Assembly (NCBI GenBank): GCA_017537905.1
Contig: JAFYJX010000023.1
Span: forward strand, 1-17,705
Direction: 5' to 3'
DNA from: Clostridiales bacterium
GTDB lineage: Bacteria; Bacillota_A; Clostridia; Saccharofermentanales; Saccharofermentanaceae
Length of the DNA: 17,705 nucleotides
Shown in pieces: positions 5,031-16,808 of this stretch (position 1 is the stretch's first letter; the number at the start of each line of letters is the position of its first letter). The notes beneath the pieces are model-generated. The model had not been told where the DNA came from. It did not search any database and saw nothing but the letters and a program-made list of their open reading frames with translations. Made by a program: the position numbers and the translations under genes.

Positions 5031-6533
5031 CTAGTTCTCTGTCGGTTTTGCAGGAGGCTCTTTGCCGTCTGTTCCGGGGAAACCGTCCGGCGGATCACCT
5101 GAGGGCTTTTCGCCTGACGGCGGATCACCGGGGAAGTCGCCAGAGGGCTTTTCACCCGAAGGTTTTTCGCCTGATGGTTTTTCACCTGAAGGTTTGCCTC
5201 CTGAAGGAGGTTCGCCGGGCATTCCGTCCGGCTTGCCGTTTGAAGAAGATTCAGTTGCTATCGTAATTGCCGTTCCTTCTGAAGCGGTTCCTTCGCTGTA
5301 CTTGTTTCCGCCTATGTAGAGGGTGTGTCCGTTAAGGTCTATAGCATCCTTATCGCAGGTAAGGCCAGTAATGTATGAGTCGCCTGTAAGTACCCATTTC
5401 GAGCCTGATTCGATCTCGACATAGACTTCGCCTTCGTTACCGGCATTTACCGCGCCTGTATATGTGGAGTTTGAAGATAGATAGAGATTAAGCGCAGAGA
5501 CTTTGTCTACTACGATATCGCCTGTCTGGGTCTGTTTTTTTAAGTAGAGATTTACCTTGCCGCCGTTGGAGCCTTCAGAACCCCAGCCTGCTGCAGCAGC
5601 TCTTAAAAAGACACCGTTTGCATCCTGATTTACTATCTGTGCATTCTCGATTGTGATCGTCGTTGCTGTATTGTTTACGAAGAAAACATCACCGTTCTTA
5701 TTGATGAGCGAGCCGCCTGCCATTGTGAATGTTGCAAGGCCCACAGATGCGTCGCCTGACATCGACTGGTAGATCATTACGGCGTTATATGTCGTGGACT
5801 TGTCGCTGTTATGAGTGCTGTTGTTAGCTGTAAGATCAACGTTATTGAGCGTTACCGAATTCTTGCCTTCGACGACTACGCCTTCGGATTTGGTGGACTC
5901 TAAGGTGGCATTGCTCACCGTGATGTCTGCGGTGGAGTAGATGGCAGGGGAGCCCTGGCCGTCTGTTATGTAGGTGCCGCCGTCAACGTTTACTGTTCCG
6001 CCGCCCCTGTCAGATCTGATCGCTGCAGATGAATTGCCTGTTGTGTGAATGTCGAGATTTGTGGCGATCATCGTTCCGCCGCCGGTCGTCATGAGTCCGC
6101 CTGAGCAGTTGCCTGATGTGGTTATCTTGGAATTGCTGATGTTTACCGTCGTGCCTTCACCGTATGAGAATACAGCGTTGGCATGCGTGCCGTTAGTGTC
6201 GACCTCGATGTCCGTGAGTGTTAATGTTGCACCGTCAGTTGCGAAGATCGCTGAATTCTCGCCATAGAAATCTGCTTCATCTCCGGAATCTGAATCGCCG
6301 GTCTTTGTTACTTTAATGTTTGAATAATCGGCAGTTTTTCCGCTTACCTCTATGGCATGTTCGCCGTTATTGGAGTTTGTGATCTCCTCGCCGGTCACGA
6401 AATCATTTTCCGCCTGTGTTTCCTGTCCTGTGACATTGTTTGTATTTCTGGACGCCAGACAGGCGGTAATTGAGAATGACATTGATACGGCAGCTATTAT
6501 TGCCATAATGAAAAGAACTTTTTTCCTGATCAT
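5031..6533 (-). CDS. Secreted beta-helix lipoprotein with Pro/Gly-rich repeat tail
   Basis: 500 aa. The N-terminus has a charged start (MIRKK), a hydrophobic core and lipobox ITAC with C25, so it should be lipid-anchored on the outer membrane face. Residues about 55-425 are a series of short Thr/Asn/Gly-rich strands such as GATLTLTDIEVDTNG, GTTVNISNSKITTSG and GGGTVNVDGGTYITDG, typical of a right-handed parallel beta-helix. The phrases VVEGKNSVTLNNVDL and MIYQSMSGDA recur in a widespread, uncharacterised family of Firmicute surface beta-helix proteins (recalled, not searched). Residues 429-500 are low complexity, built on PSGEKPSG-type repeats, probably a flexible spacer. AAGGAGGA nine bases before the ATG fixes the start. 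Function is probably adhesion or polysaccharide binding. No enzyme motif is seen. Confidence 0.8.
   Translation of the reverse strand: MIRKKVLFIMAIIAAVSMSFSITACLASRNTNNVTGQETQAENDFVTGEEITNSNNGEHAIEVSGKTADYSNIKVTKTGDSDSGDEADFYGENSAIFATDGATLTLTDIEVDTNGTHANAVFSYGEGTTVNISNSKITTSGNCSGGLMTTGGGTMIATNLDIHTTGNSSAAIRSDRGGGTVNVDGGTYITDGQGSPAIYSTADITVSNATLESTKSEGVVVEGKNSVTLNNVDLTANNSTHNSDKSTTYNAVMIYQSMSGDASVGLATFTMAGGSLINKNGDVFFVNNTATTITIENAQIVNQDANGVFLRAAAAGWGSEGSNGGKVNLYLKKQTQTGDIVVDKVSALNLYLSSNSTYTGAVNAGNEGEVYVEIESGSKWVLTGDSYITGLTCDKDAIDLNGHTLYIGGNKYSEGTASEGTAITIATESSSNGKPDGMPGEPPSGGKPSGEKPSGEKPSGEKPSGDFPGDPPSGEKPSGDPPDGFPGTDGKEPPAKPTEN
5034..5249 (-). repeat. Coding repeat: PSGEKPSG-type tail of the lipoprotein
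   Basis: About 216 bp encode a Gly/Pro/Ser/Lys/Glu-rich tail in which the five-residue unit PSGEK recurs, interrupted by PGDPP and PPDGFPG variants. The DNA repeats are imperfect but close enough for slippage, so tail length may vary between strains. The antisense strand is also open here purely because of the repeated codons. Confidence 0.75.
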
Positions 6534-11414: not shown

Positions 11415-11930
11415 TTACTTGTCGCTTGCAATGTAATATGCGAGGACGAGAATTCCGAGCAGTATTCCGGCGCATGAAGTAATGATGCCGGCAATTGCCT
11501 TGCCTTTACCGCCACAGTCTTTCCTGGTAAGACCGATGATCGAGAATATTATTCCGAGGATACCGGGAATCATATTAAATATCGTAGTCCAATATGTAGC
11601 AGCGGTAACAATACCGAGGACCATACCTACGGTTGCCATAGTATTACGCTTTGGCTGCGCAAAAGGAGTGATAACCACACCCTGCTGGTAAGCAGGTGTC
11701 TGGTAAATAGGCTGCACCGGCTGCTGGTAAACAGGCTGTACAGGCTGGGCTGCAGGCTGCTGGTAAACGGGCTGTACGGGCTGAGCCTGGACTATAGGCT
11801 GGACTACAGGACCGGGTGCCGGTTCAGGTCCGGGAGCTGCAGCAGTCTTTGCAGCCGGAGCAGGAGCACCACAGTTTGTGCAGAAAGCTTCACCATCCTG
11901 AATAAAAGAACCGCATTGTTCGCAATACAT
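11415..11930 (-). CDS. Zinc-ribbon protein with PVQPVYQQP linker and DUF4190 membrane domain
   Basis: 171 aa in three parts. Residues 1-23 are a zinc ribbon with C3, C6, C17 and C20 (MYCEQCG...FCTNCGAP). Residues about 24-105 are a Pro/Ala/Gln-rich linker with repeats of PVQPVYQQP. Residues about 112-168 are two membrane helices with the DUF4190 signature (GMVLGIV, IPGILGIIFSIIGLTRK, GKGKAIAGII). DUF4190 proteins are common in Firmicutes and Actinobacteria, and their function is unknown; the ribbon probably faces the cytoplasm. The start at 11930 has GGGGG ten bases upstream and begins directly with the ribbon. A longer in-frame reading to 11981 adds no recognisable sequence. It is a paralogue of the protein encoded just upstream (12038-12784) but lies beyond that gene's terminator, with its own candidate promoter. 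Confidence 0.8.
   Translation of the reverse strand: MYCEQCGSFIQDGEAFCTNCGAPAPAAKTAAAPGPEPAPGPVVQPIVQAQPVQPVYQQPAAQPVQPVYQQPVQPIYQTPAYQQGVVITPFAQPKRNTMATVGMVLGIVTAATYWTTIFNMIPGILGIIFSIIGLTRKDCGGKGKAIAGIITSCAGILLGILVLAYYIASDK
11711..11785 (-). repeat. Coding repeats for the PVQPVYQQP linker (copy in the 171-aa protein)
   Basis: Imperfect 27-bp units reading GGCTGCTGGTAAAC plus GGCTGTACGG on the plus strand recur about three times. They closely resemble the repeats at 12473-12620 in the neighbouring paralogue and could support recombination between the two genes. Confidence 0.7.
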
Positions 11931-11971
11931 AAGATCTATCCCCCATATCAAAATATGTTTATCAATTGCAG

Positions 11972-11980
11972 ATTGTACCA
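11972..11980 (-). promoter_or_regulatory. Candidate extended -10 promoter of the 171-aa zinc-ribbon gene
   Basis: TGGTACAAT (11980-11972 on the minus strand) is an extended -10 box identical to one near the 2002 start. It lies directly after the U-tract of the upstream terminator, so the second paralogue can be transcribed independently. The -35 region overlaps the U-tract and is not convincing. Confidence 0.4.
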
Positions 11981-11983
11981 CAC

Positions 11984-12013
11984 AAAAAAACTGCCCGCAT
12001 TGGTTGCGGGCAG
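11984..12013 (-). terminator. Rho-independent terminator of the ABC transporter/DUF4190 transcript
   Basis: A perfect 9-bp stem, CTGCCCGCA (11991-11999) with TGCGGGCAG (12005-12013), and a 5-nt loop; leftward it is followed by seven T residues (11990-11984). It lies about 25 nt after the stop of the 248-aa DUF4190 gene. It is the only strong terminator after the transporter genes. Confidence 0.9.
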
Positions 12014-12037
12014 AAAGTTTTTGAATTTGCGAAAAAC

Positions 12038-12784
12038 TTAGAAATCTACTCTGTATCCGTCGATATGAAGGACGCCGCTTACATAGCCGTCATCCGTATT
12101 AACGAAGTCGCCGTCAATAAAGAATGCGTTAGCGTCGTTATTGGAGTAGCTGGTGTCATACATAGTTGCAATAGCTTCGTCCCACTGCTTCTGGAATTCA
12201 TTGCCTACCATGGTCCAGAATGTCTCCTGGATAACAATGCCTAAGGCAAGACCGACAACAGAGAGGATAAGTCCTGCGATTGCCTTGCCCTTACCGCTGG
12301 CGTTTCTCTTAGCTACACCGACAATGGAGAAGATCAGTCCGAAAAGCGCGAAACCCCAGAACAGGAACGGGATCCAGCAGAAAACTAATGTGAGGATACC
12401 GAATACGAGACCTGCTGTGGCGGGACCGTTGCCGCGCTTTGCAGGGGCTGCGGGAGCTACCTGCTGGTACATGGGCTGAACCGGCTGCTGATACATAGGC
12501 TGCTGGTAAACGGGCTGTACCGGCTGGGGCTGCTGATAGACAGGCTGTACGGGCTGGACTGCAGGCTGCTGGTAAACAGGCTGCTGATAAACAGGCTGAA
12601 CGGGCTGAACGGGCTGAGCTGCAGGAGCGGGTGCTGCCGCAACAACGGGAGCTGCCGCAACGGGTGCGGGAGCAGGTGCTGCTGCCGGAGCCGGCTGAGC
12701 CTGAGGTCTAGTTACAGGTGTACCGCAATTGGAGCAAAAAGAATGACCATCAGGAATTAACGAACCACATGATTCACAATACAT
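12038..12784 (-). CDS. Zinc-ribbon protein with Pro/Gln repeat linker, DUF4190 domain and extracytoplasmic tail
   Basis: 248 aa. Zinc ribbon at 1-22 (C3, C6, C17, C20; MYCESCG...FCSNCG), an Ala/Pro stretch (26-55), then a PVYQQP-type repeat linker to about 115. Next is a DUF4190 unit of two to three helices with ATAGLVFGILTL, GFALFGLIFSIVGVAKR and GKGKAIAGLILS. Unlike its shorter neighbour it carries a further 50-residue soluble tail (about 199-248) with Trp, Asp and aromatic residues (FWTMVGNEF, GYVSGVLHIDGYRVDF). AAGGAGGGG before the ATG fixes the start. It begins 21 nt after the stop of the ABC transporter ATPase gene with no terminator between, so it is probably the last gene of that operon. 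Molecular function unknown; a sensor or membrane scaffold is a guess. Confidence 0.82.
   Translation of the reverse strand: MYCESCGSLIPDGHSFCSNCGTPVTRPQAQPAPAAAPAPAPVAAAPVVAAAPAPAAQPVQPVQPVYQQPVYQQPAVQPVQPVYQQPQPVQPVYQQPMYQQPVQPMYQQVAPAAPAKRGNGPATAGLVFGILTLVFCWIPFLFWGFALFGLIFSIVGVAKRNASGKGKAIAGLILSVVGLALGIVIQETFWTMVGNEFQKQWDEAIATMYDTSYSNNDANAFFIDGDFVNTDDGYVSGVLHIDGYRVDF
12473..12620 (-). repeat. Coding repeats for the PVQPVYQQP linker (copy in the 248-aa protein)
   Basis: About 148 bp of imperfect repeats built on GGCTGCTGGTAAAC and GGCTGAACGGGCTG on the plus strand. They match the shorter array at 11711-11785 in the paralogue. Repeat number is likely to vary between strains. Confidence 0.7.
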
Positions 12785-12805: not shown

Positions 12806-13555
12806 TTACAAAACTTTTTGTAAGAATGCCTTAAGTCTCTCGTTCTGAGGATTTGTGAAGATCTGTTCAGGCGTGTTCTCTTCGATGATTTTACCACAGT
12901 CCATGAATATAACGCGAGTGCCGACTTCTCTTGCGAAGCCCATCTCGTGTGTTACGCAGACCATCGTCATACCTGCTTTCGCGAGATGCTTCATAACATC
13001 AAGAACCTCGCCGACCATCTCAGGGTCAAGAGCGCTCGTGGGTTCATCGAAAAGCATTACATCAGGATCCATCGCAAGAGCTCTGACTATTGCGATCCTC
13101 TGTTTCTGACCGCCTGAGAGCTGTGAAGGATATGCGTTTGCGCGGTCTGCAAGACCGACTCTCTCGAGAAGAGACAATGCCTTTTTCTCAGCATCTTCCT
13201 TTGAAAGGCCATGAAGTTTCATGGGTGCGATCGTCATGTTGCGGAGAATCGTAAGGTGAGGGAAGAGGTTGAAGTGCTGGAACACCATTCCCATCTTCTG
13301 TCTTAACTTGTTGATGTCCGTCGAAGGAGACATGATGTCTTTTTCTTCGAAAGTGATAGTTCCGCCGGTCGGACGCTCGAGGAGATTCAGGGATCTTAAG
13401 AATGTCGATTTACCTGAACCCGAAGGTCCGATAACTACGACAACTTCGCCCTTTTTGATGTCCGTGGTAACGCCGTCTAAGGCCTTTACCTCTCCATCGT
13501 TATAGTATTTCTTAAGATCCTTAACGGATATGATCACATTATTATCAGCGCTCAC
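12806..13555 (-). CDS. Polar amino acid ABC transporter ATP-binding protein (GlnQ-like)
   Basis: 249 aa, the normal length for GlnQ/HisP-type ATPases. It hydrolyses ATP to drive amino acid import with the permease encoded just upstream. Walker [10 protein letters not shown] (43-51), Q-loop Q93 in [10 protein letters not shown], signature LSGGQ (146-150), Walker B VMLFDE (166-171), D-loop SALD (174-177) and switch H203 are all intact. 'FQHFNLFPH' and '[12 protein letters not shown]' are typical of the polar amino acid subclass. The start is taken as GTG 13555, which has AAAGGAGG ten bases upstream. A longer reading from TTG 13588 would place that ribosome site inside the gene. The GTG lies inside the permease gene (11-nt overlap), so translation is probably coupled. 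The amino acid carried cannot be told from this subunit. Confidence 0.92.
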
Positions 13556-14414
13556 TGTTCTTAAGCCTCCTTTCGAGAATCGATACAAGCCAGCTGAAGA
13601 ACATTACGATCACAAGATAAATGATCGCAACTGCAATAAGCGGCATGAACGCAGAATATGTTCTGGATCTTATGATGTCGCCGCCTTTTGTAAGTTCCTG
13701 GAGTCCGACGTAACCTGATACTGAAGTCTCTTTAATGAGAACGATAAATTCGTTAGCAAGTGCGGGAAGAACAGTCTTGAATGCCTGCGGAATGATGATG
13801 AAAGCCATCGTTCTTACATAGCCGAAGCCCAATGAACGGCCTGCTTCAAACTGCCCCTTATCGACACTCATGATTCCGCCTCTGATGATCTCGGCAACAT
13901 ATGCTCCGGAGTTGATACCGAAGGCAAGTGTTGCTACAAGGATCTTGTTATTGGATGAAGCGAAAATGACGAAATAGATGATCATGAGCTGGACTACAAC
14001 AGGGGTTCCTCTGATGACCGTAAGGTAAACTCCGCAGAGTTTATAGAAGAAGTAGAGAACAGCTTTGCCTAAGCCGCCTTTAAGCTCTTCTTTCAATGTG
14101 TCATAAGAAGATCTGACGAGGGCAACGATAACGCCCAAAACGATACCCAGAAGGACCGCGAAGAACGTAACCTGGAAAGTGACGCCGAGACCTTTGAGAA
14201 TATAGGTATAGCGCTTGTCCGTAATGAAGTTGTTTTCAAAGTCAAGCCAGAATGCGCTTGCAAAGAATGCTTTTCTGATATTAGCGATCCATGAAGGCGG
14301 ATTGCTAATAGGCATGGCCAGCAGCACATAAACAATAGCTACGGCGATCAATATCAAGCCGATAACTATAAGCGCGTTTCTGACCTTGGTTTTATTTGTC
14401 TTTTTCCCGCTCAT
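13545..14414 (-). CDS. Polar amino acid ABC transporter permease (HisM/GlnP family)
   Basis: 289 aa. A single N-terminal helix (12-33) and a 30-residue external segment precede the standard permease core of about five helices (from about 70). Core motifs are the [16 protein letters not shown] start, [11 protein letters not shown] (133-143), and the EAA loop [23 protein letters not shown] (189-211), which docks onto the ATPase. This matches the His/Glu/Gln/Arg/opine family (HEQRo) of permeases. One gene presumably forms a homodimer, since no second permease gene is present. The start is taken at ATG 14414 with GAGGA eight bases upstream; a GTG at 14444 is possible but lacks a good ribosome site. 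It lies 126 nt after the binding protein stop, across a strong hairpin, and overlaps the ATPase gene by 11 nt. Confidence 0.9.
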
Positions 14415-14475
14415 TTGTTGTTCCTCGAAATTTTTAGTAGTCACCCTAAAAAAGCAACTTTAATTATAAATAATG

Positions 14476-14510
14476 AAAGAGCGGAAATACAGACCATATT
14501 TCCGCTCTTT
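14476..14510 (-). terminator. Long perfect hairpin between binding protein and permease genes (partial terminator)
   Basis: A perfect 14-bp stem, AAAGAGCGGAAATA (14476-14489) with TATTTCCGCTCTTT (14497-14510), and a 7-nt loop. Leftward it is followed by CATTATTTATAATTAAA, T-rich but not a clean U-tract. Such a structure after a binding protein gene usually protects the upstream mRNA and limits read-through, giving more binding protein than permease. No separate promoter for the permease was recognised. Confidence 0.65.
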
Positions 14511-14540: not shown

Positions 14541-15371
14541 TTATTTGTTTGCTGCTGCAACAAATGCCTTAGCAGGCTCGTTGTCGATAACAACTGCGTC
14601 GATCTTGCCGGACTGGAGTGCGATAACTGCATCGTTACCCTTTGCGAAACGCTCAACTCTGTTTTCACCTACGCCGCCGTTCTCAGGTGTGTCAGACATA
14701 TAGATGTCGCCTGTTGTACCTGTCTGGACGCCTACTTTGTAGTTGCCTTCAAGAAGCTTATCTACGTCTGTGATCTCAGAACCTTCAACTACGATAACGG
14801 ACTGAACGCCTGTAGCATAAGGTGTAGAGAAGTTAACGGACTTAAGTCTGTCTTCTGTAACGGTCATGCCTGCGCAGCCGATGTCGTACTTGCCAGCCTG
14901 AACGCCTGCGATGATGGAATCGAACTCAACGTCCTCGATAACGAGCTCAAGGCCGAGCTTGTCAGCAACTGCCTTAGCGATCTCAGGGTCGATACCTACG
15001 ATGTTATCACCTTCGTGATACTCATAAGGCTGGAAGAAAGCGTTTGTAGCCATGATGAGCTTGCCCTCTTCGATAGTTGTGAATTCGGGATAAGTACCCT
15101 TTACAGATTCTTTCTTCTCGATCTGAGCGCCTGCAGGAATGTACTTCTCGATGATGGAAGGAATTGTGCCGTCTTCTGTGAGCTCAGCGAGAGCCTGGTC
15201 GATAGCTGCCTTAAGACCTTCGTTCTCCTTGCTGATTGCCATAGCATAATCTTCAACAGCATAAGCTGTGTCAAGGATCTTGAGGTTCTTCTTAGCCTGT
15301 CCGCATGATGTCATTCCGAGCAAAAGTGCTACAGAAAGGAAAGCTGCTGCGAATCTTGAAAGTGTCTTCAT
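14541..15371 (-). CDS. Amino acid ABC transporter substrate-binding lipoprotein with circularly permuted SBP_bac_3 domain
   Basis: 276 aa lipoprotein: charged start, hydrophobic core, then C23 in GMTSCG as lipidation site. The domain order is abnormal. Residues about 29-79 (LKILDTAYAVEDYAMAIS ... DGTIPSIIEKYI) are what normally forms the C-terminal end of SBP_bac_3 proteins. After a linker of about 25 residues, the usual beginning (EGKLIMATNAFFQPYEY, 102-118) follows. It runs through GIDPEIAKAVADKLG, GMTVTEDRLKSVNFS (R175, expected to hold the ligand carboxylate), VGVQTGTTGD (213-222) and DAVVIDNEPAKAF (D263, expected for the amino group). The protein then stops exactly where the displaced segment would normally follow. 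No frameshift and no leftover C-terminal code lie downstream, where a hairpin begins. AAAGGAG eight bases before ATG supports the start. The ligand is probably a polar amino acid. Confidence 0.9.
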   Translation of the reverse strand: MKTLSRFAAAFLSVALLLGMTSCGQAKKNLKILDTAYAVEDYAMAISKENEGLKAAIDQALAELTEDGTIPSIIEKYIPAGAQIEKKESVKGTYPEFTTIEEGKLIMATNAFFQPYEYHEGDNIVGIDPEIAKAVADKLGLELVIEDVEFDSIIAGVQAGKYDIGCAGMTVTEDRLKSVNFSTPYATGVQSVIVVEGSEITDVDKLLEGNYKVGVQTGTTGDIYMSDTPENGGVGENRVERFAKGNDAVIALQSGKIDAVVIDNEPAKAFVAAANK

Positions 15372-15533: not shown

Positions 15534-16808
15534 ATGAAGAGGGTATTAATTCTCGGTTGCAATGAATTAACAAAGCGTTTGCTCATTGAACTTTGCAAAT
15601 ACCAGTCTTATGTCTCGGGTATCTGTCTTGCTTCCCGCAACAAGGAAGATTGTGACGAGCTCAGAGAGCTTGCATTAAGCATGGGCGTCAGAGTCACAAC
15701 AGCAGGAATCGATCTGAATAATGTTGAGGGTGCCATGATGATGGTTCGTATCTTTGCGCCTGATATGGTCGTAAATCTCCTGCCGCCTGAACTCGCACTT
15801 TCTGCTATGGATCTTGCGATAAAAGCAAAAGCAGATTACATCGATGCGACGCTTTTCGGCGTGCCCGAATTTCCGTCGCCGATCTCACTTCTCTCGAAGC
15901 AGTTTGAGAAGTTTAAGGATTTCCAGAATAACGGCAACACTGCTGTCTGCGGTGCAGGACTTGTTCCCGGCGTTGCCAATACGATCATAAGACATGCCGG
16001 TCTCTATCATTTCAAGAAGATCGAGAGCATTGATATCATTTCCGTTTCCGGCGAGCAGAAGGAAACTGCGAAGGGTAAGAAGAAGGATATCGACGATAAT
16101 CTTTATTCGGAGGACATCAAACCTCCGCTCATTCCGTTAAAGAAAGCGACCAACGACAAGAAGGTATTCTATGTCGATAAGGGCAAGGTCATAGAAGCAG
16201 ATCCTCTTTCCATCGAAGGAAAATCTGACGGCGGAAGCAAAGTTTATCTTTCTTCCAGCCCGATGCTTACGGATCTTCTCAAGGAATTCCCTGATGCTAT
16301 CAGCGTAAGGTATTTCAAGCTTGGAAGGAAACCTGCAAAGGAACATATTCCGCCCCAGAAGAAGATTGACTTCTTAAAGGAGATGGGACTCTTATCCACA
16401 GTGCCCGTTAAAGTCAATAATGTTGAGGTCGCTCCTATAGACCTTATCGCAGCCATGCTTCCGAAGCAGGCAGACCTTGATGTTGAGAAGGATGAAGAGG
16501 AGAAGGCAAAGGGAATGGCTTCTTTCGAGATCTACATCACCGGCCAGAGCAAGAAGGAAGACAAGGAAGTTACCAAGTCCTATGTCATCAAGGGCGATAA
16601 TGACGAGTGCTATGAGAAGAACTATAACAGCGCTTTCGAATATCTGAAGGGTTCAGCTCTCATTGCAGGCGTTAAGCTCATGTGCAAGGACAAGTGGAAG
16701 AAGCCCGGAGTATTTACCCCTGCTGCTTTCGACTGCAATTCATATTATGAGGCCTTTGTAATGGAAGGCATTGAAATAAGAGAGGGCGTAGGCAAGCGCT
16801 TCAACTAA
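15534..16808 (+). CDS. Saccharopine dehydrogenase family oxidoreductase
   Basis: 424 aa, the usual length for bacterial members. The N-terminal Rossmann fold begins MKRVLILGCNELTKRLLIEL, with the glycine loop reduced to GCNELT rather than GxGxxG. It continues with a basic residue after strand 2 (ASRNKED, suggesting NADP), DLNN (60-63), the 'FAPDMVVNLLPPELALSAMDLAIKAKADYIDAT' stretch, and the family motif CGAGLVPGVANTI (139-151). The middle and C-terminal part forms the substrate domain. Relatives include saccharopine and carboxynorspermidine dehydrogenases, acting in lysine or polyamine metabolism; many bacterial homologues are uncharacterised, so I do not name the reaction. GGGAGGA before ATG 15534 fixes the start. 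A region of about 16 charged residues near 318-330 (DVEKDEEEKAKG) looks like an insert. The GGDEF gene follows 36 nt downstream. Confidence 0.82.
   Translation: MKRVLILGCNELTKRLLIELCKYQSYVSGICLASRNKEDCDELRELALSMGVRVTTAGIDLNNVEGAMMMVRIFAPDMVVNLLPPELALSAMDLAIKAKADYIDATLFGVPEFPSPISLLSKQFEKFKDFQNNGNTAVCGAGLVPGVANTIIRHAGLYHFKKIESIDIISVSGEQKETAKGKKKDIDDNLYSEDIKPPLIPLKKATNDKKVFYVDKGKVIEADPLSIEGKSDGGSKVYLSSSPMLTDLLKEFPDAISVRYFKLGRKPAKEHIPPQKKIDFLKEMGLLSTVPVKVNNVEVAPIDLIAAMLPKQADLDVEKDEEEKAKGMASFEIYITGQSKKEDKEVTKSYVIKGDNDECYEKNYNSAFEYLKGSALIAGVKLMCKDKWKKPGVFTPAAFDCNSYYEAFVMEGIEIREGVGKRFN

Follow-up and report, generated by a model that had tools for sequence, protein, structure and literature searches.

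The stretch of DNA analysed here, which we call the window, comprises 17,705 nt (positions 1-17,705 of contig JAFYJX010000023.1, assembly GCA_017537905.1) from a rumen-type Clostridiales bacterium of the Saccharofermentanaceae. It carries a gene for a substrate-binding protein (SBP) assigned to SBP_bac_3, which we take to be a type II binding-protein family, and the parts of this protein stand in a circularly permuted order. We refer to the canonical N-terminal part through the first strand of lobe 2 as block A, to mid lobe 2 as block B and to the canonical C-terminal segment as S; the canonical order is A-B-S and that of the window protein is S-A-B (Table 1). The coordinates and translation of the open reading frame (ORF) were as given in an initial annotation of this DNA. 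A ribosome-binding-like AAAGGAG precedes the ATG, and the signal peptide resembles those of canonical sister genes (MKT..LLLGMTSC). Its lipobox cysteine, C23, is invariant in a 17-row alignment, and a loose lipobox pattern was present in 82 of 83 window-type entries (not de-duplicated) and at 20 of the 21 window-type loci described below; the protein is probably of the bacterial lipoprotein type.

Table 1. Features of the permuted SBP gene and its neighbourhood in the window (ABC, ATP-binding cassette; aa, amino acids; sd, standard deviation).
Feature	Coordinates	Strand	Basis or remark
Permuted SBP_bac_3 substrate-binding protein, 276 aa, order signal-S-linker-A-B	14541..15371	-	ORF translation, Pfam, phmmer
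Signal peptide with lipobox Cys23, residues 1-23	15303..15371	-	Pattern; lipoprotein processing predicted
Tether, 5 residues (24-28)	15288..15302	-	
Moved segment S, residues 29-79, equal to the canonical C-terminus	15135..15287	-	
S-to-A linker, residues 80-99, with canonical C-tail (KYIPA) and N-lead (FTTIEEGKL)	15075..15134	-	
Block A, residues 100-199: N-terminal part of lobe 1, R175, hinge 1 (~185-188), start of lobe 2	14775..15074	-	
Rest of lobe 2, residues 189-276, with block B and D263	14544..14807	-	C-terminus equals GlnBP 170
Hairpin and T-rich tail between SBP and permease genes	14476..14510	-	1 found; shuffles mean 0.8, sd 1.1
ABC permease, amino-acid type	13545..14444	-	TIGR01726 49.7 bits against a cut-off of 42.2
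ABC ATPase (ABC_tran)	12806..13588	-	Best NCBIfam match GlnQ, under its cut-off
Divergent gene marking the conserved locus	15534..16808	+	Synteny

The initial annotation had read the SBP_bac_3 parts as standing in the wrong order, and phmmer, Pfam and alignment of the reopened chain all bore this out. In a phmmer comparison with AncQR (4zv1), residues 103-272 of the query matched positions 10-176 of the chain (108.7 bits), and residues 29-78 matched positions 182-231 (16.9 bits, independent E-value 0.042). SBP_bac_3 (PF00497) was the only Pfam family to exceed its gathering score, with 119.4 bits against 26.4 (E 1.2e-34) in two stretches; the parts ran S-A-B and not A-B-S, as in a permuted relative of the canonical family. 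When the chain was reopened near residue 99-102 and the old ends were joined, a check of the kind that the initial annotation had proposed with a split at residue 90, the global alignment score against E. coli GlnBP rose from 199 to 256-257. In comparisons with canonical relatives, identity reaches 77% between the moved segment and their C-terminal segment, and 89% and 94% for the two core blocks, which excludes a chance match.

The description of the surroundings as a normal operon with intact permease and ATPase also held, on the strength of the TIGR01726, ABC_tran and GlnQ matches; judged from their sequence, these two genes are of the polar amino-acid (PAAT) importer type. The hairpin between the SBP and permease genes is a weak candidate for a transcript end or attenuator. 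Neighbouring genes other than those of the transporter were named by reading the sequence, and the divergent gene we take to be saccharopine-dehydrogenase-like. This gene, the SBP, the permease and the ATPase occur together at 18 of 18 permuted loci (L001-L018) and at 14 of 14 canonical loci (L022-L035). Next come two zinc-ribbon genes, at all 18 permuted and at nine of the 14 canonical loci, some loci reaching the contig end, and trmL is present at 17 and 13 of them, respectively. At L019-L021 only the permease and ATPase, of the window's neighbour queries, found matches. Since permuted and canonical versions occupy the same locus, the permutation arose in place. In the window itself, the two adjacent zinc-ribbon-like proteins directly after the ATPase gene (11415-12784, minus strand) carry QPVQPVYQQP repeats, and a secreted repeat protein whose tail is rich in Pro, Gly and Lys (GEKPSGEKPSG) is encoded at 5031-6533 on the same strand.

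Sixty of the 120 relatives among the matches listed share the window order, and these are the best 60, at 73-93% identity; the other 60 comprise 55 canonical proteins, three that read A-B and two that read B-S-A-B-S. A scan of named genomes, in which 80 loci were kept, gave 21 window-type loci (L001-L021), nine loci of a second S-A-B group and 50 canonical loci. L015 (record AB4001) and L017 (record YAD3003) come from records titled with strain names and without a metagenome-assembled genome (MAG) tag, and entry P0057 is named Butyrivibrio sp. AE2032. A full-length permuted match was found in 22 of the 115 species genomes of the family of L015, and all 22 were confirmed block by block. In 76 of the 115 the match begins in the core (E <1e-40), and the 17 of these that were checked were all A-B-S; 12 of the remaining genomes have distant matches only and five have no match. 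No genome carrying both a permuted and a canonical version was seen in the listed rows of these 115. The initial annotation had treated the order as one without a known example while allowing that it might mark a known clade; the protein is no singleton, and it does belong to a clade. In a carefully searched 51-row tree, drawn from 75 rows, the 21 window-type rows formed one clade (99/95) within 28 canonical rows, adjoining P0066, a row whose own position is weak (89/66).

The linker retains traces of both ends of a canonical protein. Its start resembles the C-terminus of canonical sisters (KYIPAEG, KYIPVEG) and its end resembles the start of their mature domain (FTTVESGKLIMA); at L018 the linker reads KYIPVEG...TYPEFTTIESGKLIMA. 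The permuted chain stops at AKAFVAAANK, and canonical sisters run on as AKAFVAAN-EGLKIL. The C-tail and N-lead in the linker and the position of the chain end are the remains expected of an in-frame tandem duplication in which the first A-B was deleted and the second S was lost. In-frame A-B-S-A-B-S tandems exist elsewhere, as P0127 (531 aa, repeats identical at 181 of 223 positions), P0152 (140 of 220), the permease-fused P0151, P0153 and P0189, and L192 (772 aa). Together with the linker fossils, these tandems support what had initially been called a plausible origin, namely tandem duplication and trimming of both ends. By this route the ancestral canonical gene at the window locus would have been duplicated head to tail and in frame, the first copy would have lost everything from after the signal peptide up to its C-terminal segment, and the second copy would have acquired a stop just ahead of its own C-terminal segment.

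Two further S-A-B groups have their chain opening at roughly the site seen in the window protein. The second group contains L036-L040, L047, L053, L055, L056 and L134 together with 119 further proteins from a search seeded with the group, and the third comprises 16 loci (L163-L169, L171-L178 and L182). Another order, B-S-A, in which the chain is opened near the start of lobe 2, was read in 62 of 357 clusters among the matches listed (for example P0167, with a longest contig of 3.18 Mb, P0170, named Eisenbergiella, and P0128) and in 11 of 12 candidate regions (L183-L191, L193 and L194), the twelfth being the canonical tandem L192. B-S-A proteins have a lipobox in 69 of 73 entries and a median tether of 54 residues. 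In P0124, P0125 and P0148 a B-S-A tandem is joined to a permease (B-S-A-B-S-A-permease), and the repeats of P0125 are identical at 221 of 223 positions, which points to a recent duplication or gene conversion.

Among 197 genomes of the order of G006, the genome of L056, at least 20 carry S-A-B (seed and L180 included) and at least 11 carry B-S-A; these counts are lower bounds because picked candidates alone were examined. An S-linker-A profile matched 31 of the 299 genomes from the phylum of G001 at E 1e-30, and 30 loci were assigned. L203 (the seed) and L204 are S-A-B, and L205 and L210 are B-S-A. L215, L216 and L231 were labelled S-A-B by the script and by reading have block B split between both ends, B2-S-A-B1, which is a third cut; these chains begin mid block B and finish just past a GVQ.GTTGD motif. 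L228 and L227 read as a permuted and a canonical tandem, respectively, each followed by a permease-like stretch, and the remaining loci comprise 18 that are A-B-S and three that are A-B without a detected S.

The homologue search and tree that the initial annotation had suggested place the order in the window clade and in two further groups that the tree sets apart. The 107-row tree was built from representatives at 86% identity out of 508 (60 A-B-S, 29 S-A-B and 18 B-S-A); it came from a quick search and has several long branches, tandem copies were entered singly, and the orders B-S-A-B-S, A-B-S-A, A-B and S-A-B-S-A were left out, as was L180. On this tree S-A-B needs at least five changes, three of them forced by starred branches, and the same numbers apply to B-S-A. 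The S-A-B groups were named only after the tree had been seen, with L135, an S-A-B protein that falls in none of the three, and L180, in which S comes with a split A, excluded, and one-clade tests rejected every pairing: the difference in log-likelihood was 62.8 for SAB1 with SAB2 (approximately unbiased test, p 0.0028), 132.9 for SAB1 with SAB3 (p 3.5e-9) and 94.7 for SAB2 with SAB3 (p 0.0013). One B-S-A protein, L189 (genome G228), falls inside the third S-A-B group in this tree; it may be a permuted chain that was opened a second time, or a long branch in the wrong position.

A potential explanation for this pattern is that all S-A-B groups stem from one old permutation, and that canonical relatives have reverted or the tree has been misled by transfer or recombination. 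The groups do open the chain at nearly the same place, they were named post hoc and the tree search was quick, with long branches. We nevertheless consider a single old permutation unlikely, since the tests reject all three pairings, the window clade sits within a set of canonical orthologues that share its locus, and identity of its moved segment reaches 77% with canonical segments and no more than 53% with those of B-S-A proteins. We put forward instead, as a tentative proposal somewhat short of probable, that in Clostridia the opening of the type II amino-acid binding protein is labile and that tandem arrays have repeatedly been trimmed to permuted proteins, with at least three independent S-A-B openings in addition to B-S-A and B2-S-A-B1. 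All three cut sites appear to lie in lobe 2, and each would shift both termini and the lipid anchor out of lobe 1 into that lobe, suggesting that the tethered lobe or the first-exported end is under selection.

In GlnBP, according to the part of the published account used here, the large domain spans residues 5-84 and 186-224, the small domain 90-180 and the hinge 85-89 and 181-185 (PMC7400645). Aligned with GlnBP, the cut in the window protein maps to 170/171, inside lobe 2; residues 29-37 correspond to the last strand of lobe 2, 38-42 to hinge 2, 43-79 and 100-184 to lobe 1, about 185-188 to hinge 1 and 189-276 to the remainder of lobe 2. Because the cut lies inside lobe 2, the number of hinge crossings remains two, the same as in a canonical protein. 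The initial annotation had expected lobe 1 to be contiguous and to be followed by lobe 2 with a single hinge crossing; the contiguity of lobe 1 holds, but the single crossing was rejected by the position of the cut together with these lobe limits (PMC7400645). By this mapping the permuted chain has lobe 1 contiguous, lobe 2 split and both termini in lobe 2. It would fold like a normal type II binding protein with both hinge strands retained, its termini and lipid anchor lying beside the hinge in lobe 2 instead of in lobe 1.

The structure prediction that had been suggested as a check came out in favour of a binding-protein fold, as far as a model can: the better AlphaFold2 model had a predicted local distance difference test score (pLDDT) of 91.6 and a predicted template-modelling score (pTM) of 0.82, and its best fold matches were ArgBP, GlnBP and ArtJ. 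No permuted SBP appeared in the fold-match lists, which says little because aligners follow chain order. Between the lipobox cysteine and the first block, the tether has a median length of five residues at L001-L021, as in the window protein, and of 18 at the canonical loci L022-L035 (13 of 14 with a lipobox); entry-based counts were not de-duplicated, and a recount by locus agrees. The ArgBP of T. maritima exchanges its C-terminal helix, and the moved segment of the window protein might likewise be exchanged between two molecules in a segment-swapped dimer or chain. The linker of about 20 residues is long enough for this. However, the single-chain model is confident across the whole segment and, as far as a monomer prediction can speak to a swap, we regard one as distinctly unlikely.

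The ligand residues that the initial annotation reported as kept, R175 and D263, align with R75 and D157 of GlnBP and are invariant in 17 rows. The median ratio of non-synonymous to synonymous substitution rates (dN/dS) was 0.087 for 22 window-type genes (230 of 231 pairs) and 0.092 for the moved segment alone (223 of 231 pairs); it was 0.107 for 14 canonical genes (90 of 91 pairs) and 0.193 for nine genes of the second S-A-B group (36 of 36 pairs). The permuted SBP is under purifying selection. It would bind an amino acid in its cleft, close, and hand the ligand to the adjacent permease and ATPase. A short tether at an unusual place could also suit a protein that has left transport and become a receptor or scaffold, but this is very unlikely given that permease and ATPase genes lie downstream at 30 of 30 permuted loci and that both ligand residues are kept. 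An assembly artefact, a truncated gene or a decaying pseudogene has negligible probability, for although apparent metagenome chimeras of these genes occur (37 of the 357 listed clusters read B-S-A-B-S), artefact was ruled out by the strain-named records AB4001 and YAD3003, by the identical order and identical two ends in 22 of 115 family genomes and by the synteny of a single conserved locus, and pseudogene status by the low dN/dS.

The B-S-A-B-S clusters that were read (P0117, P0113, P0122, P0126 and others, these four and 33 further making up the 37) resemble a B-S-A gene joined to a canonical gene within the shared block, and many lie on short contigs. They look like assembly joins of permuted and canonical genes, and we did not rely on them as true duplication intermediates. 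P0109 and P0119, which read A-B and lack S, can be explained in the same way with a window-type gene involved, and P0108 is a fragment. Metagenome assemblies may produce false long versions, a possible hazard for protein catalogues, and profile searches name the permuted proteins correctly yet hide the rearrangement.

We conclude that the gene product is very probably a functional component of an ABC importer, a lipid-anchored protein that binds polar amino acids and whose chain has been circularly permuted. The part order, the clade, the replacement at one locus, the purifying selection and the linker fossils are established; we infer the ligand class, lipidation, part in transport and origin by tandem duplication and trimming, and take the predicted fold from the model. 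Several observations weigh against this conclusion. An earlier model built on 61 permuted sequences scored poorly (pTM 0.64; query TM score <=0.30, root-mean-square deviation ~9-14 Å), and the alignment behind the better model also included canonical proteins, which helped the core prediction. In most fold-match rows only residues from ~93 onward were aligned, and D10 of GlnBP is replaced by N110. The usual docking on the permease is difficult to reconcile with a five-residue tether attached to the protein's back; in GlnBP, N170 and the C-terminus share a site at the domain interface on the side opposite the pocket (PMC9022810, in the portion drawn on here). Within the window's own family, neither an S-A-B-S form nor a tandem intermediate was seen, and no credible relic of the lost second S was found downstream of the stop in 74 permuted ORFs (some of them the same gene), the search returning five matches at E 3 to 10, with the best at E 3.

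A natural precedent is TpMglB-2 (Tp0684), a circularly permuted glucose-binding protein designated 'Type Ic' (PMC4990184). In the sections of that paper used here, it is likewise a natural permutant of a lipoprotein-type ABC binding protein, present in a clade, it keeps ligand binding and conformational change, and its authors also propose a link to membrane tethering (PMC4990184). It differs in having a Type I sugar-binding fold, the window protein being type II, in that its permuted part is just 13% identical to its counterpart, and in adding a fourth hinge crossing, and those sections show no canonical orthologues at its locus (PMC4990184). Set against them, the parts of the window protein are up to 77-94% identical to canonical relatives, its crossings remain two and it has canonical orthologues at the same locus. 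Among glycine betaine binding proteins we take 2B4L to be OpuAC and 1R9L and 1SW1 to be ProX. These three structures include mutual permutants, so that permutation again occurred within a binding-protein family; the family is a different one, and in the excerpt available the relationship was detected from structure at <24% identity, with no sign of a recent event (PMC2395249).

Canonical SBP_bac_3 proteins of the GlnH/ArgT/HisJ type share with the window protein the same parts, the ligand Arg and Asp, the operon and, in related species, the locus; they differ from it in part order, in the position of the termini and anchor and in tether length. Circularly permuted binding proteins are also said to have been engineered for sensors by Clifton et al. 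in 2017, and those are artificial, unlike the natural window protein. We found no described SBP_bac_3 permutant in the open-access literature, subscription papers and preprints lying outside that coverage; permutation of binding proteins as a kind is known, and its occurrence in the SBP_bac_3 family and its recurrence appear new. The natural binding-protein permutants in the literature consulted were recognised between distant proteins, whereas here permuted and normal orthologues with blocks up to 77-94% identical share a locus, the fusion scar can be read, and present-day tandem proteins found elsewhere look like the initial stage of permutation. A classic question of protein evolution, namely how a fold comes to open its chain elsewhere and stays functional, thereby becomes directly testable, as does the effect of the new opening on hinge motion and membrane tethering.
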